Assembly: GCA_963920665.1 (NCBI GenBank)
Contig: OY987268.1
Location: 8,310,501-8,374,500, forward strand
DNA from: Straminergon stramineum
Taxonomy: Eukaryota; Streptophyta; Bryopsida; Hypnales; Calliergonaceae
DNA length: 64,000 bases
Direction of reading: 5' to 3'
Under the pieces are notes generated by a model. It saw only the letters and a list, made by a program, of their open reading frames with translations. It made no database searches and had not been told where the DNA came from. The position numbers were made by a program, and so were the translations under genes. Numbering within the stretch: position 1 is the stretch's first letter; the number at the start of each line of letters is the position of its first letter. Shown piece after piece: positions 29,341 through 54,230 of this stretch.

Positions 29341-29540
29341 CATGCCAGGAAAAACACCAAACGGGATCATTGTGACACTTCCTAAACATCACCTATGGCG
29401 CCCGAAGCTAAACATGCAGCACTTCACATGGCTGAGACGTCTATTACAACATCAGTCTCAATATCTAGACATCGTTCTAGGGTTCATTCACGTGACCTTC
29501 ATATACTTCAAGATATCGAAAAGGATTTTAGTTCAAAAAC

Positions 29541-31417: not shown

Positions 31418-31483
31418 GAGGCCTACACATGTTTGCATATTTTTTTTTATTTTATGAGGATGCTTGGAGGCCTACACATGTTT
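31418..31483. repeat. minisatellite flank interrupted by element C (left part)
   Basis: CTTGGAGGCCTACACATGTT occurs twice here, separated by a T-rich spacer and TTTATGAGGATG. The same unit continues at 53533-53590 on the other side of element C, and a diverged one lies near 53950. Element C therefore inserted into a pre-existing tandem repeat of element B. Confidence 0.8.
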
Positions 31484-32651
31484 ATGCCATATTTAACTAC
31501 TTTTGGGCTATTGAAAGTCCAAAATTAAGAAAACGCAGAAATCTCCCGATGCATGGTGTAAGGCATTACAACGGGAGATTTCCAGATACTCTGAAGTTAA
31601 TTTTTGTAAGTATGTTGCATGGCTCCCGATAGGTCAATTAAAGCACATGAATGTGCATCTCAGGATATACATTAACTGTAAATGATGAAGTAAATAGGGC
31701 TCGCATGGATTTATTCTAAGCAATACATCGGGAGATATCTAGATACACAGAAGTTTAGGTTTCCTTGAGGGTGGTGCCAGGCCCCATAAGTTCACGAACA
31801 TACATGTTAGGGAAGATTGAAACTCTGAATGATGAAGTAATTGCTACCACTTGGAATGGAGGTGGGGAGTAAGTTACCTGGAAATCTCCCGATGGAGTGC
31901 AAGCCTTGTAAGGCTAGCACGATCATTTTGTATACCAGAACATTCAGGTCTTATGCATCTTATGCCCTCCTAAAGTATTCCGGGCATGAACAATGAATGT
32001 AAAAACTTGGCCTTCATTGATATCAACAAAGTCGTTCGAAACATAAACATTTGAAAGCATAGAGGTAGAAGATTCCAAAGAATGACAAGACCAAGTCATT
32101 TGAAATGGAACAGAACGAATGAAAATGAATATTGGAAATAGTAACTTACAATGCAAGAAAGAAGGAAATTGTCTTGCAACATTTTAATTATCGCTTAAGA
32201 GATCAAGTACAAGAAAATATTGAAAAGCAAAGCCAATGGAGTGCCAGCACCTGCTATGACTAAGAAATGGGATTGGGAGGTTGCACTGCAGGAATAAAAA
32301 GAACACATTCCGGTCTTCATGAATAAAGTGAAGGCATTCACACCACAAAAGATTTCACAAGAACCGCTGGTCCCTAACTAAACCTTGAAAGACAAGAAAC
32401 CATATGTGGACACGCAGGCTCCCACTTTCGCGCCCGTCCGAAGGAAACATCGGGAGATCTCCCGATGGCCCTGCCAATACCACGTCGACCAAAACCAAGG
32501 ATCGGGAGATCAACTGATAGCTGTGCCACTATGCGGCCAATAAAAACAAAGCATCGGGAGATCTCCCGAAAGGCCTGCCACAATTACGAAAGATAAAGAA
32601 GCAAATTGGGAGATCTCCTAATAGCCATAAAGATCAGGACACAATAATCGA
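31484..32651. other. left terminal region of element C
   Basis: Contains the left inverted repeat, then scattered perfect and degenerate palindromes (near 31540, 31575, 31870, 32450, 32505, 32560). No gene. It would be the 3' UTR and terminator side of the DUF7869-like gene. Confidence 0.6.
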
Positions 32652-35600
32652 TCAAGGGTCCACCTCGTTTGCCCTATTCAAATTCGCAAGGGCAGCTTCT
32701 CTACTTTTCCTAGGAATAGTCCTTGATTTCGGGTTAACTTTCTTGGACCAAGTCGCGTATACTACAGAAGATGCATCCACCCAAGCGGGAGGTGTATTCT
32801 CAACAACCCACTTCCCGTACCAACAATTTTGGTATCTCAATTTCATTGAACTTTCAGAATTATCCGGTCTCCAATATTGGAGCAGGAACTTCTAGTTGTT
32901 GACATGGCCTTCCTCTCTGCAAACCTCGCACAGTGCTCTTCCTTGCCAAACAGCACAAATTAAGGGGTCTTCGGGTCGGAGTAGAACCCACGAACCTAGA
33001 CGAATATCAACCCAAGGATTGAAGCTTTCCCTTGGCGCCTCATTTGCGGGTCCGCAATAAGGTTCCAATTCCTCTACCTCTGGAAGGATGTCAACAGGAT
33101 TAACTGTCGGCTCCTGGGTAGATGGATTTTGCACCCTCCAATCGTACTTTGGCCAGAAGCCTTCAACCAATTCCGTAGGATAGTCCGGAAGTGGCTCCTT
33201 TACCTCACGCAACACACGCTTCCAATACTCGACGTATGGAGAGAAGGCAGTCGCAAATCCCTTGCATTTGGTCATTCCATCTTCCCAGAAGTCAATGTAC
33301 TTCTCCAGTCCTAACAGAATCAAACCCTTGTTCAAGGTTGCTTTCCGTGCCGCTTCCACCGCCTTCTCTTGATTTCCGGATGCTGAGGGAACTTCGCAAC
33401 CCCACATGGGCTTGAAAGGAACAGGTTTAGGGCAACCCGGAGGTAGCTTCAGCCGACCGCTTCGGTCTTTCTTCCACAAGCATCGCGAAGGTCCATCGGA
33501 TGGTAGCCAGTGTGAATCAACTGCTGACTTCTTATATTTCATGACAGGGACTCCATGACAGTCCACATAGAACCGAAAGAGGTGCATCTCCCCTAAACCA
33601 ATCAGTTTAGCAGTGCCGTTGCACAGGTATCCCTTGACAAAGGACTTGAAATCCGCCACCTCTTGGATGAATTCTGGCATAAATGTCAATTCTTGGGACT
33701 CCATGAAGGCTTTCATAAGGTCCGCGACGACAAATGTATTCTTGCTCTTCAAAGCCTTGGACAGGTGGCTAAAATATGCATCAATGTCCTCGTGAGTATA
33801 TCCTACTAGTAGAAAACCCACCTGAATTTCCTAGAATACTCCTCTTGCAGTAAGCAAGGACAAGAACGCCATGAGATACTAGTTCTTGTTATCTTTCGCG
33901 GAGTTGTCAAGCTGAAGATAGAGCTTTTTAGGAAGAGGGCGAGCTCCACGTCGAGCATCCTCGGGAATCAGTTTCAAGGCGTCCATACACCTAGATTTCC
34001 CTCTAAGTAATGCCTCGAACAATGTATTCGCAGGCGGATAGGGGAAAAGGTTGCCAGTCTCCCGAATCGGGGGACCTTCAAGTCGACGAAATAGCTTAGC
34101 CAACGATGAGACAGTGAAGTTCGAGTCGCCTGGCCAGCACGCTGGACCATAATGGGCATATGCACCGTCGGCATGACCATGAGCGACCATACCAGTTACA
34201 CTCATAGGAAGCTGACCCAAACCTTGTGTGGCCTTTGTAGTCACCCGCATTCTTGGAAGAGCCGTCTTCCGTGTATCCATTTTGTCGTGAATGATGCACA
34301 ATATCTCCTCAGGGTTCCTCTTAGATTCTTCACGCCATGTGGCATACAATCGACGGCAGGATGCTTGATGATTCAGATGTTCACCTCGCTGCTTCATGAA
34401 CTCCATGAAGTCCAAGCTTCCTTTTGGTGATTTCAAAATGAATTGCTGCAGTTCATCGCACTTCGTACACTTGGCAAAAGAGCTGCCTACAGGCTTAATG
34501 GAAACGTTATTGAAGTGCTCCTTTTTTATTCTACTAATCGTGGACTAGCTGACTGTATGAAGGCCACACTCCACATTCAACTGCAAGTAGAAAACCCAGA
34601 ATACACATCACATTCAGTTAGGGTATGGAATTCTAAAAGACCGTAAATAACAATCACACTAGCAATAGTGTCGACAAATTATTTCACAAAACGACAGTCA
34701 GGAGAATTTTCGATAGGATAGAAATAAAATCAAGTCCATTGGGAGACATGTATCGGGAGATCTCCCGATGAGGTAGCAATGGGAAAAAGTCCATTCTAAG
34801 ACATGTATCGGGAGATCTCCCGATGAGGTAGCAATGAAAAGAAGTCCATTGTAAGACATTTATCGGGAGATCTCCCGATGAGGTAAGAATGGACAGAAGT
34901 CCATTGTAAGACATGTATCGGGAGATCTCCCGATGAGGTAAGAATGACAAGAAGTCCATGGGGAAACATTTATCGGGAGATATCCCGATGAGGTAGCAAT
35001 GGCAAGAAGTCCATGGGGAAACATTTATCGGGAGATCTCCCGATGAGGTAGCAATGGAAAGAAGTCCATTGTAAGACATTTATCGGGAGATCTCCCGACG
35101 AGCTAGCAATGGAAAGAAGTCCATTGTCAGACATGTATCGGGAGATCTCCCGATGAGGTAAGAATGAAAAGAAGTCCACGGGGAAACATTTATCGGGAGA
35201 TCTCCCGATGAGGTAACAATGGAAAGACGTCCACTGTAATAAGACATGTATCGGGAGATCAACTGATAAGGGCGGACTAAACTGAAGTTTATACAGAGAA
35301 ATGTGTGGTGGAGATGTATCGATGCACTGAACTCCGAAAGAAACCCATCATAATTCTATCCAATCATATAAAAGGTTCAGCAGAATACCTCGTTCGCATC
35401 AGCATGAACGCGCTTCCAGTTGTTTCCCGCAGGCAGGAACTTCAATGTGTCCACTCTCCCATTCCCTATGGACCGCATTTGGTGCGGCATTTGGTCAGCA
35501 GTGTTGTCGATGATGGCTTTCATTGTACCAGTGACTTGCACTGTTCGAAGTCGAGGACGCTTGATCCCTTTGTTCCCGTGGGTCGAGGAAACCACTCCTT

Positions 35601-36729
35601 GCTTGTACAAATCCATGTAATTGTGATAGGTGGACTTCGGTACTCCGTGAATAGTGTACCATGCAGTGGCACAAACTTCATATCCTTCCAAAGTAATATA
35701 TTTCCGCTTCCGCGTCCAATCCACACTATGCAATTGCCCGCCAGCAGCGATTCCATAATCTCGACGCTCTTCAAAAGACTTCGAAAAATATCTCTGTCTG
35801 ACCATCAACGATTTTGCCTGGGGAAAAAACTGGCAGCAATGACTGTCGCAGCATTTCTCTGAACTGACCTTCCGAATTTCATCGTCGCTAGTTTTATGAG
35901 TGAACTGTGTCTCTGTATGACAAAGGGAGGGTTGACGAACTATGAATCGATACGGCGCCTTCTCTCTTCCACCCAGATACGCTAGCGGATCTTGTACATC
36001 AAGAAAGGCACGAAAGTGCTCCACCGTGTCCTTCAAACTTCGACCATTAGGGAACCAGCACTCTGAAATTGGCCAGCGAGCGTGGGTCATGATTACATCA
36101 TGATCACCCAGGAAAACGTCAAGGACGGTCACACCTACGTGCCCCTCACCAAGGGTAGTATTCTGGAAACAATCGTCCGGCCTCCAACAATTTATTTGTC
36201 CGAATGACAGTAACACACCCACTGCATCATTTCGATGAACCTCCAGCCCAGTCCATTTCTCCAGTCGAATAAATGGACTCGAATCGAAATGGGGATCTTC
36301 AGTACATTTAACAACGTCCGCGGCACTCCACAACACCGTCCGGTTCAGGACATCTGAGAGCGTTGTAAAACCCCTTTGGCAAGGTGTGACCCTAAAATAC
36401 TGAGCTTCAACGATAAACGATGACGGCCGTATGAGAACAAATATCCACGGCTCGAATGGAATAGGAACTCTGAGCCACTCGCCCTGAGGTCTTGCCTCCA
36501 CTACAGACCCTACTCTGACTTCACCAAATCCTCGATGATAAAGCTTAACCACGTCCCCTACATTCAATGGTGAAGTCCGTGCGCAAGACTCTTGTGACTC
36601 ACCCTCGTCAGCACCATCGCCAATAAATGGCGTAATTGCATAATCCATCGCCTCTGAGACCGAATCCATTGCCTCTGAGACCAAATCCATCGACTCTTCC
36701 CCACTGTTGATTGAAACCATATCTCCCAT
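32652..36729 (-). pseudogene. DUF7869-like transposase candidate, four in-frame TAGs
   Basis: Two exons, 36729-35389 and 34580-32652 (TGA), joined in phase 0 across an intron that holds the 55-bp palindrome array. Together they give 1,089 codons. Residues about 356-380 form a putative HTH (VPKSTYHNYMDLY), preceded by a Cys/His cluster (KCCDSHCCQF). The second exon has FAKCTKC (possible zinc site), HDKMD (546-549), LQLDNSAKDNKN (Asp672) and VGYTHEDIDAYFS (His710-Asp714). The order HDKMD, DN...KN, THEDID is what I know from DUF7869 proteins, thought to have an RNase-H fold and to be transposon-encoded. These Asp/Glu residues are the natural catalytic candidates. In-frame TAGs lie at 34545-34547, 33879-33881, 33831-33833 and 32892-32894; otherwise the frame is undamaged. 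The start at 36729 is tentative and an upstream exon is possible. Confidence 0.7.
34754..35262. repeat. 55-bp tandem array built on the palindrome
   Basis: Palindromes start at 34754, 34809, 34864, 34919 and 34974 and continue to 35250 at about 55-bp spacing, roughly ten units. The spacer contains AGAAGTCCATTGTAAGACAT. One unit has TATCCC in place of TCTCCC, and the last is half-degenerate (GGAGATCAACTGATA). The array lies entirely in the intron of the DUF7869-like gene. Confidence 0.9.
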
Positions 36730-36834
36730 AGGTTCTGGATCTATATATCTACAAAATAAAGGACCCAACGTTGAAGTTAGAAAAGTCAATTCCAAATGAC
36801 AGTGTCCACAATAAGTTAGGGTCAGTCACTACAA

Positions 36835-37700
36835 ATTCATCGGGAGATCTCCCGATGGAAGGACTCTCCAGTAGAAAATATTTGCAGTCGAAGAAACCAG
36901 TAATATTATGAATAGAAATATTCGATCCCACCACTCCAGTAAAGTCATCCGAACATCAAACAATCTCACAATATGAATGCCCAAGAGAACCCGAGAGTGG
37001 AAGATGTCTGGACAGAAGTCTCCCGTCTCCGAATAACACAAGACCATCGGGAGATCTCCCAATGGACCCGACAACCACGGACCGTAACATTTCATCGGGA
37101 GATCTCCCGATGGACCCAACAACCACGGACCGTAACATTTCATCGGGAGATCTCCCGATGGATTCGACAACCACGGACCGTAACATTTCATCGGGAGATC
37201 TCCCGATGGACCCGACAACCACGGACCAAAACATTTCATCGGGAGATCTCCCGATGGACCCGACAACCACGGACCAAAACATTTCATCGGGAGATCTCCC
37301 GATGGACCCGACAACCACGGACCGTAACATTTCATCGGGAGATCTCCCGATGGACCCGACAACCACGGACCGTAACATTTCATCGGGAGATCTCCCGATG
37401 GACCCGACAACCACGGACCGTAACATTTCATCGGGAGATCTCCCGATGGACCCGACAACCACGGACCAAAACATTTCATCGGGAGATCTCCCGATGGACC
37501 CGACAACCACGGACCAAAACATTTCATCGGGAGATCTCCCGATGGACTCGACAACCACGGACCAAAACATTTCATCGGGAGATCTCTTGATGGACCCGAC
37601 AACCACGGACCAAAACATTTCATCGGGAGATCTCCTGATGGACTTGACAACCATGGACCAAAACATTTCATCGGGAGATCTCCTGATGCACCCAGCCCGA
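36835..37700. repeat. 48-bp tandem array built on the palindrome
   Basis: From about 37047 to 37690, a 48-bp unit repeats about 13 times: the 20-bp palindrome followed by GACCCGACAACCACGGACC and then GTAACATTT or AAAACATTT. Because 48 is divisible by 3 there are long open frames on both strands, translated as repeats of about 16 residues. I regard these as non-coding. It lies upstream of the mapped DUF7869-like exons. Confidence 0.9.
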
Positions 37701-37779
37701 AAATATGAAGCAATTCAATGGCAGATCTCAACATTCAAAATAAAAATGAGGTTCCCATTCCCAAGCGGAATGATTCCTG

Positions 37780-38300
37780 AAAGAAGTCAGCGGGAGATCT
37801 CCCGATGATTGCCAATCGGACTGCTTCCACACTCAAATCATACAGCGATCTCCTCATGATCTTCTCGTACTTGGATGGACTGACGTCATCGGGATATGTC
37901 CCGATGATATTGGAAATTCCCGTACACTTCGTTCATCGGGAGATCTCCCGTTGAGAATGCTGAATTTACGTTTCCCAATATCATCTGGAGATCTGGCGAT
38001 GATAATGCAGAAATTTAGATTACTCAAATCAACGGGAGATCTCCCGTTGATCTTGCAAAATCTCCGTTTTCAAAAGTCATCGGGAGATCTCCCGATGTTC
38101 TCCTTGCGGATTGTCCAAGGATGTCGTCCGATTGACCTAGACGAACTCCACTGGTCATCCTCGAAATACAGTTCCAGAATTATGGCACTGTAGAGACATC
38201 GGGAGATCTCCCGATAATAAAGTAATTCACAAGAAGTCCGCCAAGGAATCAACGGGAGATCTCCCGATGGCGCGAATCCAAGAAATCCGTACAATACCAA
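37780..38300. repeat. dispersed palindrome cluster
   Basis: Eight or so perfect or near-perfect copies of the palindrome at irregular spacing (about 37793, 37888, 37938, 37985, 38033, 38082, 38200, 38252) in unrelated unique sequence. After 38.3 kb the palindrome is absent until 44.6 kb. Confidence 0.8.
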
Positions 38301-39288
38301 ATGCGATTCGTAGGGCCGTCTATACGCGTAATATACGACTATACGAACTGCCTGCTGGGTGAAGACTACAGTACTTCCTCCTTGCTCTCGACGTCTGGTT
38401 TGTACTCTGCTATAGACACTTGCATCAAAGTTTTACTTTAGGAAACAATCATTCCGCTTCAGTGATACGGAGTTCCAAATCTATGATCTCGCCATCCTGC
38501 ATAGGCCACAAACTAGCGACGTGAAATCGGTGTACTTCGTAATTGTTCACAAATGCGCGCATTCACTCGCATCTGTGAAGACGGACTTCGAGGTGAATCA
38601 ATCAGAAATCCATCGGCACCCCCTACAGATGCACAGGTTCCACATTCCGACGAAGACGACATTGACACTCATCACATCCTCCTACTCACTCAGTTTGCGA
38701 TTCCACTGCATTGTCACTCTGGGCATCATCAGTCCATCACTGCATTTTCGTCATTCTAGAATTCTACAACTCAACGAACCACTGCGAAAAAAAGAGAATG
38801 ATACCTACAGTGAAGGGCTGCGAAAAGCAATCGACTAAACCTCCTGCGCCAACGCACTTGAACTTACAATTTCCCACTCTGGTCACCTTCATTCCACTAC
38901 TTCGTTCACGTCTGCGAAAGAGAGAAAGACCGCGGTCGTTGGGGGTCATCACAAACCTCAAATCTGGAATTCGTATTTCCCGCCTAAATTTGACAAGGGC
39001 GCTATGTTCCTACATTTCGGATTCTCTGAGCACTCTTAATGGTCGTGCACGACTGTGTGCAGGCTAAATCTGAAGATGCGGTCTTCTCTAAGATTGTTGA
39101 CTACAGTCTTGGAGGGCGTGCCAGCCTGCCAGCTTCAATGCTGCGGATGTGTTCGTCAGAATTTGATAATGGCTCAAATATACCAAGGGGCACAATGTCC
39201 GTGTGGGTCTTCAAGTGGATTCTTCCTCTGATTCTTCAAAGGGCCTGCTTTCAATGTGCTGCTTCTGGTCCGTTAGGTCTCCCTCTGC

Positions 39289-39450
39289 GACTTTTTTTTT
39301 TTTTTTTTTCTGAAACAAATGAATGTGATTTCATTGCAAAAGTAAAAAATACAAACCCAACAGCCACAGGTGGCCTGAAGGGAGAACAAGCAGCAACAAC
39401 ATCCACACAACTAATGATCGGACAGAGGGACGGACTGCAACGACACAATC
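39289..39450 (-). mobile_element. SINE-like copy, poly(A) tail on minus strand
   Basis: Begins with an uninterrupted run of about 17 T, then TTTCATTGCAAAAGTAAAAA and CAGCCACAGGTGGCCTG. This is the reverse-complement order of the motifs at 18655-18795. The tail and shared body suggest a retroposed short element inserted in element C. Confidence 0.55.
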
Positions 39451-39725
39451 AAGCCGCAACGTCGGGAGAGGCCGGGGATCTCCCTCTATGACTAAATACT
39501 CTTGGGTTCGGCATCTTCTAACTGTACGTTATTAACTTTGCTCCACTATTACTGCATGCGATCTAGCACATGAATTCAAGCCATTTAAAACACATCCACA
39601 CACGTGTATTTTATTGTTATGAAAAAGTCATACTCATAATCATTAAGTTGCCCGAAGTACTGGTCCCTTCATGCACGTTTTCAATTATTTCACCCCACTT
39701 ACTTAAAGTTCCATGACTTACCTCA

Positions 39726-39830
39726 GGGTTTAGGGTTTAGGGTTTAGGGTTAGGTTCAGGGTTTCAGGGATTAGGATTCAAGGAAAAAGACAAAGAAGGG
39801 TTTAGGGTTTTAGGGTTTAGGATTTAGGCA
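39726..39830 (+). repeat. interstitial telomeric repeats (TTTAGGG)n, degenerate
   Basis: Four TTTAGGG-like units at 39726-39750, then degenerate ones (GGTTCAGGGTTTCAGGG). A second run at 39798-39827 has GGGTTTAGGGTTTTAGGGTT. It sits in the middle of element C. Confidence 0.8.
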
Positions 39831-41263
39831 TACATTCATTTTCGAATATCTTCCATAATTATGTGTTTCTAAATTTCGGGTTGTGATTTAATTGCTTGGG
39901 GATCATTTTCTTTAATCTATATTGTTGAAGATATCTCTTTGCTTGGGACCCTTCTGGTAGTTATATTCTTTTTTTACGAGTACAGTTGGAAGGTTCTAGT
40001 GCCGCTTCATAGATTGGAATGATGGATTTTAGTTTCTGAAATCTTTCTTAGACGATAGAGTAAGTTGAATGGTTTGAAATGCATTTCATATTATAATTTC
40101 ATGTTGTCATTTTTCACATTCTCTTGATTTTTATTGATTGCATTTTTATAGAGTAAATAATTGTGTGTCGAGACCGAATATACCATACCCTATCTATGGG
40201 TGTGCGATCCTTCTTTGGAATTGAGCGAGGGATGTTTGCTTGTTCTTTTTAATCTACAATGGGAGATTGAACTCTGGGAAACCTCAATCTAGGGCTTTCC
40301 TTCTCATGCTTTTCACAATGTTTTTTTTTTTAATTTGTAGACCCGAAAGTTGAATGTAAATAAATGACCAATCATATAATTAGTATTTCATATGATATAT
40401 GCATAGGTTTAGGGTAAAAAAATGATGACTTCTCCGATTCTGTTTAATTAGAAACATGGGCATCCAATGTCTAATACTTAATCATTGAAGCCTAATATAC
40501 TCGAGGAATTTGTCCATGTGATTTTTAAAATCAAGGCATATGAATTGTATATTCCAGCAAGAAATTCGGGTTTATGAATGGGATAAGTATTTAGGATGAA
40601 TTTGGCATATAACATACCTGAAAACTATATTGAAACTTCTCTAATGTAAACTACGTAATATACCAGGGCTAGTTGAAAACGTGCCCCCCTAAATATTATA
40701 AGTACCATAACAATGTTATTAATCACCACCAGTCTTCTTCTCTTGATTTTGAAGAATTATGTAAGTAACATGTTCTTCAATGAGTTCTACAAGTTCAACA
40801 ATCTCCTTCCAAATAGTTTATTCTTGCAAGTGTATGCAAAATACAAAAGTGAGTCACTCTTCAACAAAGTGTGTTTTGTGTTCTATTTTAACCCTACCAT
40901 GAACGATGCAAGCATGCAAGGTTAGAGCCGTGCACCTGTGAACTTTGAGTGTGGAACTTGTGAGCCTAAAACCCCCAAAACTTTTGGAGGGGATTTTTTG
41001 CACAGTCACCAATTTCCTTTGTTAACTTTTTTTTCTAATAGTAGAAAAGAAGTTTCTAATTATAGTGACTATTGTGAACTATGACCGTATCACCTATAAC
41101 CATGAATTGTTCTAGTCCTTTTAATTGTCTTGAGATTTTTTCATTGGTACAGGAAAAGAACTTCAAATTGTGTTGACAAGTTCAAGCACTTAGTTCAATA
41201 AGTAGAACAAGAAAAAAAGCCAAATGTTGTAAGTACACTAGACAAATGTCATTAAAATGGATG

Positions 41264-41480
41264 AAGGAAAAAAAAATGGGGAATCAACGGAAAAAAATGG
41301 GGTCCAAAAGAAGAAAAAGTGGGGAAAGAAAAAATATGGGGTCTAAAAGGACAAAAATGAGGAAGGAAAAAAAATGGGGAAAGAAAAAGAAAGTGGGGAA
41401 AGAAAAAAAAAAGGAAACGGAAGAATTGGCGAAAGAAAATAAAGTAGGAAAACTGTGAAAAAAAATGGGGACTAAAAAAA
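41264..41480 (+). repeat. purine tract, (A)nTGGGG-like low complexity
   Basis: Nearly pure purine on the plus strand with recurrent AAAAATGGGG and AAAGTGGGG. The 70-114-codon frames here are low-complexity artefacts. Confidence 0.75.
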
Positions 41481-43130
41481 AATGGGATAGATAAGAAATG
41501 ATTGGGGATTGAAACCCAAAAACGAGAAAGGAAAACCACAATGAAAGTACAATTAAAAGAAAACAATCCTAAGCACATACGAAAATGAAGGAGCACATAA
41601 TTGAATTATTTTAAAAGTTAGAGTAACTAATATGCAAAAGTTTAGAAAATGGTAATAAAAACATAGGGGGAGAAAATGAGTGGAAAAAGAATAACATATT
41701 CATAATTATATGTCTTACTCAAATAAAGATTAGGGTGGTAGATTTGAACAAGGTACAATTCATGTAAGTAACTAAGTTCTAATTTATTCCCACATTTCAT
41801 ATTTTTTTATTCCACCAAGCATCTACATTTTTTCCCAATGTTTATTTTTTTGGCCACCTACTACATAATTTTCCACATACTTCTTTATGTTGAATTGTCA
41901 ATCTATATTTGTTTCCCCCCCTATTGTTTATCCCTTGACCCATATTAGTTTTACCCCCTGTTCCACCATTTTTTCCAACTATAACTTTTTGTAGTTTTAG
42001 GGCTAACCTTCTTCATTACTTCTCTTCAAATTTATAATGATTTTGGGTAGTACTTCTAACTTCTGTTATTTTGTTTCTTTAGAGTTTAGGGTCATGTGAA
42101 GTTGGTACATCTTGTAAAAGTACATTTTTGTTGTTTATATGGCTTCCCTATAGAAGAAGTGTTTTGGAAATTGATGAAACAATCATATTAGTTATTTAGT
42201 GATGTTGTTTTTGAATAAGCGATTGTAAATGATGTGTCATTTACAATTAGAATGAATAGTATTAGCTAGGTATGACAATCCCTTATTCATGATCGCAACA
42301 ATTTTAATTTTCTTATGTTATCAAATTTTTAGTAATAAGTACAATATATTTGGTGATGATGAATTCCAAGGGTTTAGAGTTTAGGGTCATCATTTTGGGC
42401 CTTCATCATAGAATATGATGTCGAAATCGCATCACAAAATAATTAATTTCGAATATGTACTACGCATATCTTTTTGATTTAGGATAATTAATATTTGATT
42501 TACGGACCTCATGTACTTTGGTAATGATGTTCTGTATCATTCTTTGAGGTCCTAAAATGTAATAGCATTTCATGTAGAAGTTTAGGGTATATACATGGGT
42601 TTATTTTTATAGGTTATTATTTGTCCAAGAACTCAATCATCTTTAACAAAGTATATGTAGATCACTCTAGTGGTCTTATTTTGAAATTCATGAGAGTCAC
42701 TTGATTATTTAATGACTTGTATATAAAGTCTTTGTGAGGGTTACTTACTAGGAGATGAGTTTTGAAAATGGAAAAAAATGATGTACACAAAAATTATGGG
42801 AAAATGAGAGTAAGGCTTTTGAGTATAGAAATGTAATGCTTGTGTACATTTTTGAAGTTTAATGCAAACAATCATCCTAATTTGGGCCACAATGGGATAA
42901 CCTTGCTCCCACTTGTTTGCACAAGTGAGTACCTCATCTTATGATTACTTCATCTTATGAGTACTTCAATTTTTGTGATCATTTTACGTGGTAGTGTGTA
43001 GTAATTTGAAACCCTTAGCCATTATTCCTCCATAACTAAGGAAATGATGAAGGAGTTTGAAATTCTAAGCGAATTAATCCCCCCTCCAAGTTGTAAGCAA
43101 GGGATAAGTCACTAATGCCCCCCTTACTAA

Positions 43131-43660
43131 TTGCAAGGGAGTGGTAACAAATTAATCCCCCCCCCACTCATTCTTACCATGGGTGAAGTCATGATGACTC
43201 GTCCCGTGAAGGGTCTCTTCGCTTTGACAGACTGTCAGTTTGCCCTCCCCGTCGGCGGCGCCATGAGTGGAGGGGTCGACGTCGGGATTGCACTCCAGTG
43301 GGATCCGTTTTTCTCCCGCTGGAGTTGGCAGCCTGTGTTGGAGGCCATTTTTCTTGAGCCTTCGTCTTCCTCCCGTTCCTGCCTTCCCTGGTGCATTTCA
43401 GCGGTTTAGTGAGTGACTTCGTTGTGATCCGCTTTGAGTTCAGGGAATTGCGAAGCGTTGTTGAGGTACCTGCGCGAGGAGAGTTGTACCAGATTCTGCG
43501 CGAGGAGAGTTTGTGTCAGCGCGCGTTTGCATCTACGTGCCTTGGATCGCCTTGGATGCAGGATATGTGGAGGCGCCTTCATTGGCTGAAAGTTCCAGAG
43601 GAGATGCGCAGTTTCTGTAAGTTTGAGCGCTTCTCCTGTCTTCGTTTCTAGTTTACTTGC
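43131..43660 (+). promoter_or_regulatory. probable leader/upstream region of the ParB-motif gene
   Basis: GC content rises sharply from about 43180. Two overlapping open frames (43131-43409, 43391-43651) have no recognisable domain, and a GTAAGT donor follows at 43617. The first in-phase coding exon found is at 44403, so this may be a non-coding leader exon and promoter-proximal sequence. At 43735-43805 there is a short direct repeat of GCTTCGCATTCGTGGT. Confidence 0.35.
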
Positions 43661-44624
43661 AGCAGTGATCACATTTTTTTTGGCTTCATTTAGTTCGTTT
43701 GGATTTTCGTGGTGTTTGAATTGGAGGCGGTGACCGACCCTGTGCTTCGCATTCGTGGTTTGAGCTTCGCATTCGTGGTAGTTTGAGCTTCGCATTCGTG
43801 GTGTTTGAATTGGAGGTCGATTGAAGACGGATTGGAGATGCACCAGTCGTTGTAGTTTTTCCTTTGAAACATGACGAGTAGTGCGATACACGCTTAGTTT
43901 CACGACATTGTATAATGGTTATGGCTTCAACCGCATTGTGGTTTTGATTAAAAGCAGAACCAGTTAGCCTTCACAGTTTTAATGTAGCCTTGACAGTTCT
44001 TGTTTATTTGAGTGGGAAGTTTGTGAAGGTCTCGTTGCGCTCAGTGAATTGTCATGTTTTTTGTCGTGGGGGATGAGGCTAATTAGCTTGTTGATTCTAG
44101 AGCTGTCATGGTATTAGTGGTTTCAAATTTCGACCCAAAGTGCCAAGAATCTAAGCACCTCTGTTCAATATGTTTGTTTGGACAGGTCTATTGCACCTGC
44201 TTCATGTTTGTTAGGGAAACATGAATACCATTGTCTTCAATTGCAGTAGTCTTACTTCCACAGCAATAGTCGTCTAACAATGCGTTCTTGTTCATTGTAG
44301 GAGGCGAGGTTATTTCTGTCGCGTGCTTGTATTTCTGGGAGAAGAGATTGTTGTCTGCCATCCACACGAAATTTGGAGCGACAACGGGAAGAGTGCTCAG
44401 TAATGTCAACATCCTCACCAGCACCCGAAAACCCAGATGATTGGACCAACCCGTAAGTTCTTCCCTCCATTGCGGTATTTGCATGTGTATTATTGTATTG
44501 GCCAGGAAATGGCTCCAGGATAAGTGCACGGCCACATGCCATTTCCAATGCCCTGGAATACCAAACCATGAGTCCCCAAGTAATGTATTTTAATTTGAAA
44601 TAGTGAAATTTCCCCTATAACCGT

Positions 44625-45740
44625 TCATCGGGAGAACTCCCGATGAAAGTCGACTAAGAAAAATGCAGTACACTGTCACTCCGAGTTCACTTCGTGAAGA
44701 AATAACCTTGAACCGTCATTATGACATTGGTATTCTAACTGCTGCCGTCAATTTATTCACAAGTAGACCATCGGGAGATCTCCCGATAAAAACAGAAGCA
44801 AGAGTGAGAGATGAAACTCAGTCAAGATGAATATTATCGGGAGATCTCCCGATAGATTATAGACATATTTACCATACGCGATAAAAACTCTGCAAAGAAT
44901 CAGGTGAATAAACTTTTTAAGTCAGAAACTGAAGAAAACATCGGGAGATCTCCCGATGCTTTATACTCCAGGTAGAGTGACTCCTTCCTCTGCACATAGG
45001 CATCTTGAAACTGCTAAACGAAATTAGGGTCATTATTACTCACTTGGTGAAGACCGGTACATCGGGAGATCTCCGGATGCCAGGTTTGATAAATTTCGAA
45101 TCGCGCTTCATTGGGAGATCTCCCGATGCCAAAGTTGACTTATCAAGGATGTGAGTTCAACGGGAGATCTCCCGATGCCAAGCTATGAATTATGGCGGAT
45201 TTAGGGGGCAACGGGAGATCTCCCGATGCCAAGCTATGAATTATGGCGGATTTAGGGGGCAACGGGAGATCTCCCGATCCCAAGCTATGAATTATGGCGG
45301 ATTTAGGGGGCAACGGGAGATCTCCCGATGCCACCTATGAATGTTGAGGGATGCCAATGCGACGGGAGATCACCCGATGCCAGCTTTGAATTCTGACGGA
45401 TGATAATGCAACGGGAGATCTCCCAATGCCAGCTTCGAATTTTGACGAATGAGAATGGAACGGGAGATCTCCCGATGCGAGCTTTGATTTATGAAGGATC
45501 TGATTGCAACGGAAGATCTCCCGATGGCAGGTTTGATTTGTGAAGGGTTTAGAATGCAATGGGAGATCTCCCGATGCCAAATTCGACCTATCTCGGATTT
45601 GAATGCAAGGACATATCTTCCGGTATCTTCTTTAAATTCAATAGGTTGGTCCGGTTTTCTGTAGAATTTATCCCTGGATAGAATTACCACTAGTCTAGTA
45701 CGTCGAAAATATAGAGGATCATCGGGAGATCTCCCGGTAT
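44625..45740. repeat. palindrome cluster and 51-bp tandem array
   Basis: Isolated palindromes at about 44630, 44770, 44835, 44940 and 45062 lead into a tandem array with a 51-bp period (palindromes at 45161, 45212, 45263, continuing degenerately to about 45570). The spacer is CCAAGCTATGAATTATGGCG then GATTTAGGGGGCAA. All lie in the first intron of the large plus-strand gene. Confidence 0.9.
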
Positions 45741-47125
45741 AGAGAAGGTGTTCAGAGTACACTCGATTTGTCGTGATCCAGTCAATCTAATATATTTTTA
45801 TCTTCTTGCGCAGCTTGAATGTGAAAAAGGAACTCCCTGCGAGCCTTTCACCTATAAAATTGTTCAAGTTTTGCGATAGCTGGGTGCATTCGTATCAGTA
45901 TCATGGCGAGAACTTCCCAGGAGCAGTGTTCCGATGCGACCGGAAAGTCTCATCTTGGGGCCTTGAGTGGATTGAGGACGAAGATGGAACAGTCATCATA
46001 TGCCCGAAGCTCACCTTTAGCGACAAAGGTCACATGACAAAGGGGTTAGCTGTCTTAGAGCTACAGGGTCTGGATAACGCTACAGTCCTCGTCATTGTCA
46101 AAGAAATGGTTCCCAAGACTGAGGAGCGAAGGAAATATGGTTTGATCCTAGACTACGCCACCATGGATCTTGACATGTGTGAGAGTATTACACGGAAGGG
46201 GGTTTTAGAGAAACCAGACGGAACCCACTTCTGGACTCCTGAGGAGATGAAGAATGAGTGGGACATTCTGGACGAGACCAGACAACAACTGAAGTCTGCT
46301 GCACCCACACCTCCAAAGCCGTCTCCTAGTAAGAAGGGAAAGAAGCGGAAAGCCATTGCCGGAGGACCAGGAGATGAAGTGGTAGAGGAGCCAGTGGACA
46401 AGGGCAAGGGGAAAAAGAAGCCGAAGGCTGTCAAGCTCACATTGCATCCCGCCGTGAACATGACAGATGCTGAGGTGAGGAAGCTCGAGCCCGATGAGAT
46501 TAAAGAAATCAACAAGCTGTACAACTAGGTATTCAAGCCAATGTACAAATGGGAGAAGAAGCCACTCGCCAATGCAAAAGGTGAACTACTGCGAGTGCAC
46601 TACAAGAACCTTCACAAGGCTCCTCCTGGCGTACTGGTGTACAGAGGCATTGAGCCCCAACGCCTCAAGGGAATCAAGAATCGGATTCTCGTTGATGCCG
46701 ACTATTATTCTGAGAACCGATACATTACTGTATTACCTCTAAAGAGAAGACCATACGGGATCGACAATGTCGTGGAATTCTGGGATTCGTGTCCAAAGAA
46801 GGAAAGCCTGACCGCCAAATCCCACTACTACATTATTGGCGGTCAGCACACAGTCCAAGCGCACCGGGAGTTGGTTGAGTCAAGACATATCCCGGAAGCT
46901 GATAAGCAGTTGGCCTTGACGTTCAACATAATTCCGATTTGGGAACCGTACTCCACCAAGAAGAATGATATGATGCATCTCTCCAAGGCATTGAACTAGA
47001 ATATCGCCGAGGAATAGAAGGAGCAGAGTTTCTCTAAGCAACTTGCGCATGCTCGAATCAAGTGGAAGGATATGGGGAGCCCCATGCCAGCGTATGGAGG
47101 TCGAACGCACTCCGCCGAGTACAAT

Positions 47126-47515
47126 GTAAGCGTCCCTAGCAAAATGTCCCTTCTTTTTCTGTTGCCTATGCAAAGCCATCGGGATATCTCCCGATATCTT
47201 GGCATCAGGAGATCTCCTGATGTCTTTCTAGCTGACGATCTTAGGATGCCTCCTTATTTCTAGTGGCCTTTGGTGAAGTTGGGATTCCTCGGTTTCGTCG
47301 CACAGCAGGCTTGCATTGCACGATCAACGGGAGATCTCCCGATAGATATTGGACCATGGCTTTCCTGACGCTATCAAGAGATAGAGCGCTGGTTTCTCCT
47401 GCACCCAAGCAGTGAACCAACGGGAGATCTCCCGATGGCCGATAGTGTTGAGATTTACATACTGTGCTGGTTTTCGAAGACGATGATTTTTAATAGTTAC
47501 ATTTTCCATGTGCAG
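47126..47515. repeat. intron with palindrome variants
   Basis: The second intron of the ParB-motif gene carries four palindromes: two variants that keep dyad symmetry despite changes (CATCGGGATATCTCCCGATA near 47178 and CATCAGGAGATCTCCTGATG near 47203) and two near-consensus copies (about 47330 and 47422). Confidence 0.75.
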
Positions 47516-50500
47516 GAGTTCTATCCGGTGATGTCTACAATATTCACGGGATTCAAGAATCCTGACCCGGACTTGAGAATTCCTCTTCTCTTCATGGAGA
47601 ATGACGACGATGTGCAACGGTGGATCCAAATTGATAGGGATTTCCTGCTGGGAAAGCTTCCTGATGGGAATGGTCCAAAATCGAAAAGCAGAAGAAAACC
47701 ACTCAGCTATAGTGACTACAAGCCCTTGTATGGACTCCGCAACGAGGACATAAACTATTTGGCGGAGCAGGTTGAGAATGCAATGGTCTGTATGAAGAAG
47801 ACAGCGCTGAATGTGGACGATTTTGGGTAGCCATTGATGCCTCTCATTGTTGCAGCAAATCGAGAGAAGAAGGTCAGGGCCATGAAGAACGAGCTCATGT
47901 GCCATTATAGGCAGCATCCTCTTCCGAGCAAGAAGCCGGACTACATTCCATACAGTGCCAAAGAATGGGATCAATTTGCGGCGGAGAAGAAAATAACCAG
48001 GGAGCAGGTTGAGTGGTGGGTGGATAAGAGCATGGCAACGGAACTTGGGAAGGTATGGTTGGAAGAGCGAACGAGGGCACTCAACAAAACATGTGACCCC
48101 GACGAGTGCCCAGATTCAGTAAAAAGGATGTGGGAGTCCTTCATGAACGACCATGTAGAAGAAACAAACAAGGCTGCCGTGTCTCAGGATTTCGCAGATC
48201 AGTACTGCTGCAAAGTCATGGACGAGAAGAGCTGGGATATTACGAAGATTTTGACGGACGCCTCCGTGAAAGCATGGTGTGGTGAAGGGAAAACCCTCAT
48301 GTATTTCTGGTTTCTCTTTGAGGTCACATCTGCTGGAGCGCGTGCAAAATACCTCGAGCACCACAAGTTGAAGCGCTTGTTTGATGCTCTCGAGTACAGG
48401 GACGCCAGTCGACAAATTGTGAGAGCACGATCGCCTGCGGTTCTTATTACGGATGCCGCTGGATTTCACGACGTCCTCACACATTTGAAGAAGCGTCGGG
48501 ACGAGTGTAAAGCTCGTATCTGGGACTGGCATGTAATAAATTACATTCCGGACGTGGGGGATGGCTTTCCTCGTCCCATTGCAGGTGCAAATTACAATTT
48601 GTTCCTTGTGTTCCTCTTCGCGTACGACCAAATCCAGGGCTCAACAAGTAGCTTCAATAGCTTCTTCCCGGGCACTCAAGAAATTCCTGCTGTGTATTTG
48701 TCTCGGGATATGGAGGAAGTCAGTACCTTGTACAAGCGCCCTATTATGCCGTGGTTCTCTATCGCGGCGGCGCATGAAATTTTTTCTGGCCATATCTCTG
48801 AGAATATGGTTATTGTGAATGTGAACGGTGGTCCAGAGTTCACGTTTCTTGGACTGGTAAGTCGCCATTTGTATTCTTCTTGTCTGGGACTATATTCTTC
48901 TTGCGTGGGAGTCTTGGTGGCACACTAACTTGTGCTTGTTCAAATCTGACAGGCTACTTTGAATAAGGTACTCGAAGTTGTTGATGACTCCGAGACCCAG
49001 TCCAAAGCACAGTTGGTCGCAAGGCAAATTTGGGACGAGCTGCACATGGATGGTGATGAGGAAATGGAAGAGGCTAAAGAGGATCCCGTTGCGGAGCAGT
49101 CAATAGGTTATGGAGATGTAGCAGATGAAGGTCCTTAAGAGCCTCCACCACCTCAGAAAGACGACGAGATCGTGGATGTTTCTGATGATGACGACAAGAG
49201 CAGCTCTCACAGTTCAGAGGACACAGAGTCTGAATGTTCACCCGCGACCACACCTGTCGTCCGAAAGGTCAGTTGCCGGAGGGAACCATCGGGAGATCTC
49301 CCGATGCTAGTTCGTCTTTTCCATTTTCTAGCGCCCTTACTTATAAAGATCTAATGAATTTTCGTCCTTCTAGGAGAAGTCTGTAGAACCATCGCGACCG
49401 AGGCGAGACTTGCAACCGTCGTCTACGCCAAGTGCCTCACAAAAGAGGACGGGAAAGCGGGCTACTGAGGAGAAGTCGGGTAAGCTGAAGGCGAGAAAGA
49501 TGTCGGACACGAATCCGCGCGTGAGGAAGTCAAGTGACCAGGTGGAGTGCAGGACGAAGCGACGGCTGGATATCCTGCTAAGTGACTCCGAGAGTGACGA
49601 CTGTGTACCCTCTTCTCCAGTGCCGCGTCGAAAGAAGCCCAGCCCGGACGTGTCGTCCCCTCCGACGACTGGGGCAAAGGATGCCGATGTACTGACTCCC
49701 GAATCCAGAAAAGCGGCGGCTATTCTTCTTACCTATTCAGGGGAACATGCTGGTGTTGCAATTCAAGAGCCTACGAGTGAGAAAGTGGTGCAGGTGCGTA
49801 ACCCACCGGCAGGCACCGACGCGCACTGTGGACGTGATGAACTCTCGCAAGAGGAGACGCGCAACGATGCAATGGGAGATCTCCTGATGGATACTGACCA
49901 AGCCGATACTTCCGGTCGTGAAGAGGGAGAGAAAACTCTGATGCAGCGGGATGCAACGGGAGATCTCCCGATGGATACTGACCAAGCCGGTACTTCCGGT
50001 CGTGAAGAGGGAGAGAAAACTCTGATGCAGGGGGATGCATCGTGAGATCTCCCGATGGACCCTCATCGAGAGGTTACTCGTGATCCAGAAGACATTGGCG
50101 GTTTAGGGATGACAGAGAAGGCGCACGCGGTGGGGGTTGGAGCTCCACATTTCCATGAGGTTACTGGCGATCAGGAAGAAAGGATGGAGGCGCAGGTGGG
50201 AGTCGCTACATCGGGAGATCTCCGGATGGGTAATGAACCAGACGAAATTCGTGATATGGAGGGGATAGAGGAGGCGCAAGCGGGGGGAGTTGCAGCGGGA
50301 GATCTCCCGATGCGTGAGGACCCATATGACATTCACGATCTGGAGGGTACAGAGAAGGCGCAGGCGGGGGGGGTTGCAGCGAGAGATCTCCCGATGCGTG
50401 CACTTGAGGATTTGAGTCTTCGTTCCTCACTGAAGTCGACAATTCAGTTGGAGGGTGGTGCATCGGGAGATCTCCAGTTGTCTCAGGTCGAAGGTGGAAC

Positions 50501-50967
50501 TTCTGATGCCAATGTCGCTGCCAACATTTTGGAGGATACTCTAGTAGACTTGAGGCAAATGAGTCCGGAGGCTGGCACAGTGAAGGTGAATCCATTCATA
50601 GCTGTTCCGCAGGCTGGACTGACTTACGCAGAGAGACTCTCTATAAGGAATAGGTTTAAGGATCTTGTTGATTTGCCAAGTCACCATGCAAGTGTTACCC
50701 GCGATCCCACGAGTAAATCTTTTCGTGATATTCAGGCCGCGTGGGAGGCCACGAGTTTCATTTATCAAAGCATTGTTGATATCGCCTCTGACCATATACC
50801 GCAGGCAGTAGAGGAGGAGGTCTTTGAATCTGGGGCTACTTCGCCTTCCAAGGTTTATGAAGCAGAAGTTAATCGGACTGGAGAGGATGACACCAAAGGT
50901 GCTTGAGGTGACATCCTGTGTATCTTTACGGATTTGATTTCAATTGAATGTCGAGGTCGCTAGACTT

Positions 50968-51654
50968 ATGTCTAACTTCTCTCTGGTATTCTGTTTTGCA
51001 AATTGTCCTGGTCCTTCGACGGCGGTTCCGGGGACACCCAAAAAGGTACCTCGCCGAAACTATACAGTGATTCTGGACTTGAATGGAGTTATCCTTCACA
51101 GGTCGTATTTCCGTAATAAACTTCATGTTGAACGTCGGCTGGGGGTCACAACCTTCCTTAATTGGTTGCGTGGAAAAGCGCAAGTTGCATTCTGGAGCAG
51201 TGTAACTCTGCGAAACATGAACGACTTGTTAGACATTGTCCTTGCAGATTGTTCCTTCGGTCGTGGAGATGTAATTTGTCTAAATCAAGAGGCGTGCACA
51301 AAGACCAAGTATAGGGCCCCAACTGCACCACATAAGCCAATCTTTCTAAAGGATCTTACGATTTTTGCGCGGGCTGCTGGTTTATTGACACTAGAGAACA
51401 TTCTGCTAATTGACGACAGTCTAGTAAAGAAAGTCATGAATGATCCACACAATGCTGTTTTTCCTGAGTCCTTCTGCGGTGATTCCAATGACAAGTACCT
51501 TAGGATGCAGTTGATCCCTTGGCTTGATGGACTTTTTAAGTCAAATGAGAAGGTGCCAGTGTATGTGAAGGATAACCCGCTTTTTGGCGAACAACAGGGT
51601 GTCGACCCATTATCGAATGAGGGCTTCGCAATCATGACCAGGATAGTGCGTTGA
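50968..51654 (+). CDS. FCP1/NIF-like phosphatase-domain protein
   Basis: Single-exon frame of 228 codons from the ATG at 50968, ending in TGA. The HAD/FCP1 order is clear: VILDLNGVILHR (Asp37, Asn39), FWSSVTLRNM, CTKT, HKPIFLKDL, then NILLIDDS near residue 148 and a NAVFPESF segment. This matches the NLI-interacting-factor-like domain of plant FCP1/SCP-type proteins, which dephosphorylate protein substrates such as the RNA polymerase II tail. The second Asp of DxDx(T/V) is Asn here. I recall DxNG variants in plant members, so activity is uncertain. No internal stops, unlike its neighbours. It starts 62 bp after the large gene ends, inside element C, and may be captured host sequence. The first 25 residues look poorly conserved, so the true start may differ. 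Confidence 0.75.
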   Translation: MSNFSLVFCFANCPGPSTAVPGTPKKVPRRNYTVILDLNGVILHRSYFRNKLHVERRLGVTTFLNWLRGKAQVAFWSSVTLRNMNDLLDIVLADCSFGRGDVICLNQEACTKTKYRAPTAPHKPIFLKDLTIFARAAGLLTLENILLIDDSLVKKVMNDPHNAVFPESFCGDSNDKYLRMQLIPWLDGLFKSNEKVPVYVKDNPLFGEQQGVDPLSNEGFAIMTRIVR

Positions 51655-52352
51655 TCCCCGTTTTTCTCAGGCTTCATCGGGAGATCTCCCGTTACTGTAA
51701 ATTCAGATGTAAAACATTGACACTGTACATAGGCCTCAGTACATATTGATAATTAGATTGTAAAAAATTGCACTTTTACTGCCACTGTAACAAAGAGATG
51801 AGTGTTAATGACATTGTAAAAAAATGCATTTTCCGTCCACTGTGAATTGTATATTACTTGTTATGAAATGTAAAGTGATTGCACTTTTATGCTCATTGTG
51901 AATTGCTTTCTTTTTTTCCTACTCAATTTTATGTTTTATTTGTATTCCATCGAGAGATTTTTTTCCGTGCACATCACTCCTTAGCTGTTCTTTGCATATC
52001 TTCTTCAAAGATACTTAAATGACAGTTACTTTCCAGAATGTACTTGTAATTCGTAGTCTACCTTTACCACATTCCAACTGGAAAATAGTGAGTTTTCTCG
52101 ATTTTCAGCCAGTACTGGAAATGGTTCTCCGGAGTTGTCTATTCTTACTTCAACGGGAGATCTCCCGTTGTTAGATGGTGCTGTCCAACTCGATTGTCCA
52201 CTTTCATTTCATCGGGAGATCTCCCGGTGCTGATAGGTTCTTCGTGAACTGAGTATTCCTCATGAGCTTCATTGGGAGATCTCCCGTTGTTTGGAGGTTT
52301 TCCATATCTGATGAGTTTGGTCGACGCAGAAGGCGGTTCTCGTTGTTCTTAC
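51655..52352. other. intergenic region with four palindromes
   Basis: AT-rich, with palindromes near 51676, 52152, 52210 and 52270. Several keep GGGAGATCTCCCG but vary outside it. No gene. A recurring ATTGTAAA..GCACTTTTA(C/T)TG phrase at 51760-51900 may be part of a 3' UTR repeat. Confidence 0.55.
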
Positions 52353-52797
52353 AGGTGCTTTATGCGTGGAAGGCGGCATTACGGATCTTCCTCAGAGAAT
52401 TATCGTACCTGCTGGTTTTCGTGGCTTTCTTAAACAATTGGTTGAAGATACTCACTGTGGGTTGTATTCCTCCATGAATGTTCTTGCCGTGGGAGCGCTT
52501 TTGCAGCGTCTTCTGCCATGGAGTACTTTGAAGAGTTTCCTCTATATTGCTGGTGCGAACAATCCTAAGAAGAATGACCCCTATCCAAACCGTGCTGAAT
52601 TACTGAAGCTTATCTTAGGTAGCCCTAGAGAGCGCAGCATTCTCTGGAATCAAACTATAGTTCTACTTGAGTTAGATCCTCTTAAGTGGCCACATGCTCG
52701 CGTGGTAGGACCCTCCATACTTGCGAGGGATGATCTTCTTCCTTCAAGATGGGAGCGTCCGTGCTATGGTGTAAAGGAGCTAATTGCTGGGACTTAA
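52353..52797 (+). CDS. small unknown ORF near the right end of element C
   Basis: An open frame follows a good acceptor (TTCTTACAG at 52344-52352) and runs to a TAA at 52795-52797. It encodes about 147 residues of ordinary globular composition, with LPQRIIVPAGFRGF, LLPWSTLKSFLYIAG and LDPLKWPHARVVGPSILARDD. I recognise no family. No upstream exon with a start codon was identified, so it may be the 3' exon of an unseen gene or a captured fragment. If the TAA were read through, the frame would end 51 bases on at a TGA. Confidence 0.45.
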
Positions 52798-53528
52798 AAT
52801 AGAGTACAGGTAGAAAGTCCTTCAGTCATGGTGATTATGGAGTGAGTGTAGTTTATGTATTTAGGGAAGAAATAGGGCCACTTATCATTTCATTTTCAAT
52901 CATGCACCAACTGTCTTTTCATCTTGAATCATGGATTCTATAGGTCAGGCCTTCAGTTCTTTTTAAAGGCAACTTCTGTTATTTTCTATATCAATATGAA
53001 TAAATTGTGGTGAATCCACCTTACCTTTCAGTTACTTTCTAGTTTCATTCGTCCACACTAGAAGTTTGTATTTGCATTTGCCTTGTCATTTTCTATGTTC
53101 TCTTTTACTATAAGAGGTTTAGTGCAGGGATCATATCGGGAGATTTCTGGTTCCTAATTATGCGTGGAAATACTAACAGGGGAAATGAGACCTAATAGTT
53201 CCAGTTGAATAATAACCATTTTGATTGGTTTCATGCCACACTTATAGTCCTTGTATCTTGGATTTGCACTACATCGAGAAATCTCCCGATGATTCATCTT
53301 AATTACTATGTACAATTCAATGTTCTACGGTTGAATAATTGAATTGTCTTAATTATAGTGTTTTTTGTCCCCTTCTTGTGTGTGAACATGGTGTACTTCA
53401 CTCTTTTTTTCCCTCTTTCATAGGCATTGGGGTCTCCTAATCCATAACAACGGGAGATTTCCTGATGGCTTCTCCCATCACAAAGTCCAAAAGTCCTCCT
53501 AAAGTCCAAAAGTAGTTAAATATGGCAT
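52798..53528. other. right terminal region of element C
   Basis: Gene-free and AT-rich, with degenerate palindromes at about 53137, 53276 and 53450 and then the right inverted repeat. Just inside the end, AAGTCCAAAAGT is repeated in tandem. Confidence 0.6.
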
Positions 53529-54230
53529 GTTTGCACATTTTTTTTGATTTTATGAGGATGCTTGGAGGCCTACACATGTTTGCACATTTGAGTTTTTAAT
53601 AGGAGGCTTGGAGGCTTGCAAATTTTTTTGATGAGATTACTTGAAAACAGTAGAGACATTTCAGATGTTACGCATGTTTCCATATTTTTAGTTCAAATGA
53701 ACATTGTCAATTTGGACACTTTCAATCAATCTGAGATGTGTTAGTTCGGACATTTTTGGTCCATTCTTTGTCATTTTAGACATTTGTTTTTGAATGTGGA
53801 CATAATTAGTGTATGTGGACCTATGAATTTGGACCCTTTTATCTTCTTTTGTTATTTCCTAAGACGGATTTGGGATACTACAGATCTGCTCATGTTTGTT
53901 TTCTTTAGTGGGATGGATGTTCCTCCTTTTGGGGTTATTGAAGTTATGAGGCCTACACATGTTTTCATATTTTTTTGGATTTGGGTGCAGAAGATGTCTC
54001 CATTTCTTTTCTAAGTGGGCTTTAAAGGCCTACAAATTTTTTCCTAGAGGGGCACTAGGAAATTGAAAGCATTTACAACGCCGGAGATGCTTCCATATTT
54101 TCTATTGAAATGAACATGATCAATTTAGACACTCTCTGTCAATTAAGACATGTTACTTACAACCTCTTGGGTCAGTTTAGGGTCATTTTAGACATGTTCC
54201 TGTCGATGCAGACCTCATTACTAAATTGTG
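53529..54230. repeat. diverged tandem repeat of about 410 bp in element B
   Basis: A block at 53533-53812 is repeated with divergence at about 53950-54222. Both hold GAGGCCTACACATGTTT, a T-rich stretch, AATGAACATxxTCAATTTxGA and GTCATTTTAGACAT. The first copy is the continuation of the repeat split by element C at 31.4 kb. Confidence 0.65.

Follow-up and report, generated by a model that had tools for sequence, protein, structure and literature searches.

A 22-kb DNA transposon family with DUF7869 and ParB-like genes and palindrome-filled arms in the moss Straminergon stramineum

What kind of mobile element is the 22,045-bp unit that lies at positions 31,484–53,528 of a stretch of the genome of the moss Straminergon stramineum, and how might its distant ends be brought together? 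The stretch analyzed here (hereafter, the window) comprises 64,000 nucleotides, positions 8,310,501 to 8,374,500 of contig OY987268.1 (8.31–8.37 Mb of contig C6 in our designation; the genome consists of 326 Mb in 59 contigs), and all coordinates without a contig prefix are counted from its first letter. An earlier note, made from the letters of the window alone, described the unit as a possible undescribed giant transposon with a DUF7869-like gene, a large gene with a ParB-like motif, an FCP1-like gene and arms filled with palindromes. The evidence presented below strongly supports the conclusion that the unit is one copy of a family of 21–22-kb cut-and-paste DNA transposons with dozens of copies in this genome, and we consider it probable that the DUF7869 protein is a Sola-like transposase of this giant element.

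Ends, target duplications and copy number

The element is bounded by perfect 23-bp terminal inverted repeats, as the earlier note had read them, with ATGCC at the termini, and is flanked by a 4-bp target site duplication:

31480..31483, no strand: left target site duplication GTTT, from the sequence and the survey of end pairs
31484..31506, plus strand: left 23-bp terminal inverted repeat, a perfect match to the right end
53506..53528, minus strand: right 23-bp terminal inverted repeat, perfect in 27/33 end pairs
53529..53532, no strand: right target site duplication GTTT, from the sequence and the survey of end pairs

The first 217 bp of the element have at least 40 matches across the genome, and so do the last 217 bp; these numbers are lower bounds, with the best 40 of 180 left candidates and the best 40 of 115 right candidates scored. 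The left and right ends join into 33 pairs, with 7 left and 7 right ends unpaired. The 23-bp sequence is perfect at the left end of 30 pairs and at the right end of 27, and the spans are tightly distributed, such that 26 of the 33 pairs cover 20.9–23.1 kb and 29 cover 20.9–29.9 kb. The other four pairs, of 36–47 kb (C4:26132444-26175068, C2:22807485-22849723, C11:17147322-17194386 and C9:18744862-18781360), probably contain large nested insertions, given that all four have exact 4-bp duplications.

An exact 4-bp duplication flanks 27 of the 33 pairs, and the duplicated words differ among copies, so that the 4–6-bp duplication initially proposed stands as a short duplication, with its length now set at exactly 4 bp. 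Among the remaining six pairs, four lack a duplication (in one of these, three of the four bases match) and two share 2 bp, one of the latter having a damaged right end. The window copy comes with a built-in empty-site control because it was inserted inside a local tandem repeat: it splits a 49-bp unit (GGAGGCCTACACATGTTTGCA...), with the repeat found at 31414–31483 and 53529–53609, and the flanks joined after removal of one GTTT are identical to the neighboring 49-bp unit at 47 of 49 bases.

A further six full-length copies can be aligned with the window copy over its whole length, at approximately 90–98% identity in the main blocks, the center included. Both the DUF7869 gene and the ParB-like gene are present in all 17 copies examined, namely, the 7 full-length copies and 10 further ones (33 paired copies in total); in the additional 10, the DUF7869 gene was found in each, whereas the ParB-like exon was seen initially in 8 and, once a longer stretch was read, in the remaining 2 as well. 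The co-occurrence of the two genes that the earlier note had put forward as a check is thus observed in the 17 copies examined, which bear these ends. Taken together, the paired ends, the exact duplications, the constant gene pairing and the empty site identify a giant DNA transposon, and the element is recently mobile.

One copy apparently has an additional, incomplete right end arranged in tandem (C1:28382605-28382995). Old relics of the element (L079–L084, on C11, C7 and C5), with 78–88% identity, keep its left 1–3 kb; no right end at 3 or fewer mismatches was found within the 10–20 kb read for three old relics, and the relic on C7 retains a fragment of the region close to the right end of the element.

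The DUF7869 and ParB-like genes

The two large genes are transcribed divergently, and their exon models are as follows:

32655..34580, minus strand: DUF7869 exon 2, with a predicted RNase H-fold core and a C-terminal beta-barrel; borders predicted from splice signals and the frames of other copies
35389..36729, minus strand: DUF7869 exon 1, an open frame with no Pfam match; predicted borders
45815..47125, plus strand: ParB-like exon A, with the motif YYIIGGQHTVQAHREL at 46826–46873; from open frames and homologs, predicted borders
47516..48856, plus strand: ParB-like exon B, with no family match above the cut-off
48953..49267, plus strand: ParB-like exon C, acidic; from the exon model
49374..50906, plus strand: ParB-like exon D, with an 84-bp palindrome repeat (49870–50480) in frame; from repeats, open frames and the exon model

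The identification of the minus-strand gene (exons at approximately 36,729–35,389 and 34,580–32,655) as a DUF7869 gene was borne out by profile search: Pfam PF25273 (DUF7869) matches two pieces of the window copy with E 1.2e-11 and 5.2e-17 and the uninterrupted second exon from another copy with E 1.3e-43. The protein has no Pfam match beyond PF25273, no NCBIfam match above the cut-off and no PDB sequence match, and a literature search for DUF7869 found no paper naming it. The 86 homologs found include 6 with an organism name, 1 from Ceratodon purpureus and 5 from Riccia sorocarpa. An AlphaFold model of one homolog, P0001 (72% identical), contains an RNase H-type core with the element order b1-b2-b3-a-b4-a-b5-a, for which the best matches among solved structures are Mos1, SETMAR and retroviral integrase, and acidic catalytic candidates are present at D115, D241 and E280/D281/D283. 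This predicted fold supports the view that the DUF7869 protein is a DDE/D enzyme and, most likely, the transposase of the element. Residues 537–638 of P0001 are modeled as a beta-barrel that resembles the BAH and chromo-barrel chromatin readers as well as MazF; judging from this model, the C-terminal barrel might direct insertion according to chromatin state.

DUF7869 exon 2 of the window copy has 4 in-frame stops and is open in one other copy (P0089, on C7), and the ParB-like gene of the window copy has 6, with 3 of these in exon A, so that the window copy is decayed. None of the seven full copies has every exon open, and the mean pairwise ratio of nonsynonymous to synonymous substitution rates (dN/dS) among the seven is 0.33–0.57 per exon, stop codons excluded.

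The plus-strand ParB-like gene (45,815–50,906) consists of at least four exons, and the four that could be placed amount to 1,499 codons, to which an unplaced 5' part has to be added; the size of 1,516 codons given in the earlier note is close to this, and the term ‘ParB-like’ is valid for a motif with weak profile support. A search with exon A yielded 16 homologs, among which GGQHT lies within a conserved stretch in 11 and LNQ[ND] follows further on in 15; these motifs resemble the G-x-R-R and E-N-x-x-R boxes of ParB. Two sub-threshold matches, each in one of the 16 homologs, fall on the YYIIGGQHT motif, namely, phrog_1033 ParB (E 0.04) and PF20188 DUF6551 (E 0.094), and because unrelated families reach E 0.15–0.28 in the same scans, the ParB profile support is just above noise. 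An hhalign comparison with P1 ParB gave 0.2%, tblastn against phages gave nothing convincing (best E 4), and a search with the joined exons A and B gave no matches, perhaps because the database carries single-exon pieces. No methylase domain was matched in Pfam or NCBIfam in the frames scanned, which took in exons A, B and D, and no ParA was found among the element frames scanned.

Palindrome arrays and the palindrome-free center

A 20-bp palindrome, CATCGGGAGATCTCCCGATG, occurs 74 times in the window element at 5 or fewer mismatches, 15 times perfectly, and not once in the 41,955 bp of the window that lie outside the element. The picture of palindrome-filled arms around a palindrome-free center between divergent genes, drawn in the earlier note, holds in the following layout:

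31541..31894, no strand: left subterminal half or full palindrome sites, with starts at 58, 86, 243 and 401 bp from the terminus
34751..35268, no strand: palindrome array with a 55-bp period, within the predicted DUF7869 intron
36838..38269, no strand: palindrome array with a largely 48-bp period, upstream of the DUF7869 gene
38270..44625, no strand: palindrome-free center between the divergent genes, with none at 5 or fewer mismatches
44626..45739, no strand: palindrome array with a mostly 49–51-bp period, upstream of ParB-like exon A
53134..53467, no strand: right subterminal half or full palindrome sites, starting 62, 71, 238, 247 and 385 bp from the end

The seven full copies carry 55–74 palindromes each. 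At 4 or fewer mismatches, the palindrome is absent from 116,199 bp of DNA outside the elements, window flanks included, a count from which the starts of three old relics that hold decayed palindromes had been removed beforehand; this absence rules out chance occurrence. The palindromes in the three relics show many changes, often at CpG positions. The arrays have periods of 48, 55, 49–51 and 84 bp, with spacers that differ among arrays, and palindromes are found in the predicted DUF7869 intron, in the upstream regions of both genes and, within the ParB-like gene, in introns and in the last exon, in frame in the latter. In this exon D, translation of the palindrome repeat yields 28-residue units with GDLPM-type peptides, that is, repeat DNA has been made into protein sequence.

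The center aligns in all six other full copies at approximately 95–98% identity and is therefore integral to the element, which excludes a nested insertion peculiar to the window copy. Its middle (39484–43483) is AT-rich, with approximately 34–35% GC compared to 40–51% in the other 2-kb steps, and low in CpG; it contains purine-rich repeats at 41256–41497 and is unlike both arms.

The palindromes could serve as a protein-binding array, and we suggest, tentatively, that the ParB-like protein is what acts on them. As in bacterial ParB-parS systems, a ParB-box-like motif is found beside many copies of a palindromic site; unlike in those systems, there is no significant profile match, the setting is a eukaryotic transposon, and the frames scanned include no ParA. 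Several observations weigh against this suggestion and can be accommodated by two alternatives, both of which appear somewhat doubtful.

Under the first alternative, it is the DUF7869 transposase, and not the ParB-like protein, that binds the palindromes, in the manner of the subterminal repeats of CACTA elements. The left subterminal sites are at the same positions in all seven full copies, with 0–2 mismatches to the half-site, and the right layout is common to the seven save for the site at 247 bp, which is below the threshold in one; although the left and right ends of the element differ beyond the 23 bp, the distances of the half-sites from the two ends match, which favors this alternative. 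By a rough estimate, such a match would arise by chance with a probability of a few per cent and is a hint only. Most of the palindromes, however, are located thousands of bases away from the ends, within introns, intergenic arrays and an exon, and far exceed what end recognition would require.

Under the second alternative, the palindromes have no protein partner at all and are a self-spreading or slippage-amplified repeat, or else a source of hairpin-forming RNA, that colonized the element. The tandem periods show local amplification, and palindromes enter the reading frame of exon D. Furthermore, comparison of young copies gave no signal of selection on the palindromes, which change as fast as their flanks when CpG is set apart; the absence of excess conservation fits a repeat without a partner, and equal change is also the expectation for neutral decay after insertion, so that it neither proves nor excludes function. 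Conversely, the palindrome stays constant while the spacers differ between arrays, its numbers hold across the full copies, and it is missing from the DNA outside the elements.

Downstream of the ParB-like gene, two further frames were noted:

50938..51654, plus strand: NIF/FCP1-like phosphatase-domain gene, a frame of 238 amino acids, Pfam E 1.6e-13
52315..52797, plus strand: open frame of 160 amino acids with no Pfam match

The first of these is the FCP1-like gene of the earlier note, now recognized by profile. Its frame is open in 6/7 copies, and the active-site motif D-L-N is present in 6/7, those where the motif string was found; with D-L-N in the active site, the protein may not be a normal phosphatase. 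Matches to VirE1 (E 0.086), TcdB_toxin_midC (0.029), SdpC (0.062), and Mer2 and RICTOR_V (E 0.025) were all below the Pfam or NCBIfam cut-offs and were dismissed as chance. Outside the element, a short way to its left, a 391-amino-acid open frame at 29210–30385 contains an internal duplication, with an TLAETRQQEDEKKFTNENQNLSSSYRRGPEGVD-type stretch occurring twice.

Relationship to Sola and a proposed mechanism

To which superfamily might the element belong? EnSpm/CACTA elements generate 3-bp duplications, end in CACTA and have subterminal repeats and an accessory DNA-binding protein; the latter two features are reminiscent of the moss element, but its 4-bp duplication and ATGCC ends exclude this superfamily. 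Ginger transposons, with an integrase-like fold, also make 4-bp duplications; PF25273 is the sole Pfam match of the DUF7869 protein, with no match to an integrase core, which argues against this origin, and neither a tyrosine recombinase nor a Gypsy-type integrase was matched by Pfam in the frames scanned. A viral origin was likewise rejected: no relatives were confirmed in viral contigs, and a fold search against BFVD gave a best E of 0.055, with none at E 0.001 or lower. Mutator (7–12-bp duplications) and Tc1/Mariner (TA duplication), as characterized in a plant transposon guide (PMC10741241), are excluded by the 4-bp length and by the variety of the duplicated words, respectively.

The same guide describes Sola transposons as having a DDD transposase, 4-bp duplications, terminal inverted repeats of 11–1124 bp and lengths that can exceed 15 kb, and as occurring in the moss Physcomitrella (PMC10741241). 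The duplication (27/33 pairs), the 23-bp terminal inverted repeat and the size, mostly 21–23 kb, of the moss element all fit, and the two are alike in the DDD-type (here, predicted) transposase, variable ends, large size and occurrence in moss; this is a likeness by description of traits, and the passage on Sola in the guide mentions no palindrome arrays. The claim of the earlier note that no known superfamily combines these features is therefore not supported, and the element is probably not of a new superfamily, whereas the family, with no paper found for DUF7869, may still be undescribed.

A more specific parallel is Sola1-1_Ec32 from Ectocarpus, a 21.5-kb element in which a 1,104-amino-acid protein with ParB-like and DNA methyltransferase domains is encoded opposite the transposase; the authors suggest binding and modification of its own transposon as a possible role of such a protein (PMC12477816). 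The two elements are alike in size and in the combination of a transposase (here, predicted) with an opposite-strand protein that has a ParB-like domain or, in the moss element, a ParB-like motif, whereas the methyltransferase domain of the Ectocarpus partner went undetected in the scanned frames of the moss element, and the palindrome array and the NIF phosphatase are features of the moss element of which the available text on Sola1-1_Ec32 makes no mention. The moss ParB-like protein agrees with the giant Sola-1 partner in position and in motif, but its homology at the family level is weak. On the strength of this shared plan, that is, size, duplication, gene orientation and partner, the moss element is probably a giant relative of Sola. 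The combination of 55–74 copies of one palindrome with a ParB-like protein for which no methylase was detected looks new.

An alternative that we regard as unlikely is that the element represents a separate, new superfamily, with DUF7869 a DDE lineage of its own that shares the 4-bp duplication and the ParB-type partner with giant Sola-1 by coincidence. The lack of any sequence link to a named transposase, with PF25273 the only Pfam match, none above the cut-off in NCBIfam and none in PDB or the literature, speaks for such a separation and against Sola; the testable Sola traits listed in the guide are nevertheless all present (PMC10741241), and the opposite-strand ParB partner of the 21.5-kb Sola-1 element offers a specific parallel (PMC12477816). 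That DUF7869 is a passenger in an element mobilized in trans by a transposase from a different element is highly improbable, given the presence of the gene in all copies examined, its transposase-type predicted fold and dN/dS below 1, even though the frames are broken in many copies and giant Ectocarpus families with pseudogenized or missing transposases are described (PMC12477816).

Returning to a Sola-like element with DUF7869 as its transposase, the DUF7869 protein, with its predicted DDE/D core and chromatin-reader-like barrel, would cut at the 23-bp ends and insert with a 4-bp stagger. The ParB-like protein, transcribed in the opposite direction, would act as an accessory DNA-binding protein and would most likely target the 20-bp palindromes in both arms, in introns and in a portion of the sequence that encodes it. 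Coating or bridging of the arms by this protein could help to join ends that are 22 kb apart or, alternatively, shield the element. A stronger version, which we consider rather unlikely, is a nuclear ParB-parS-like module, in which the ParB-type protein loads on the 55–74 palindromes, condenses or bridges the 22 kb and marks the element as distinct from host DNA; if true, the ParB accessory proteins of transposons would have a branch in land plants that operates without a methylase.

The moss element suggests a function for the Pfam domain DUF7869, which is represented by the 86 homologs found here. The range of giant transposons that carry ParB, with reports from brown, green and red algae, would be extended to a moss, and a concrete candidate DNA site is supplied for the ParB-like partner, for which the available portions of the algal accounts mention none. 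How very long cut-and-paste elements join their ends is a question that the moss element makes testable.

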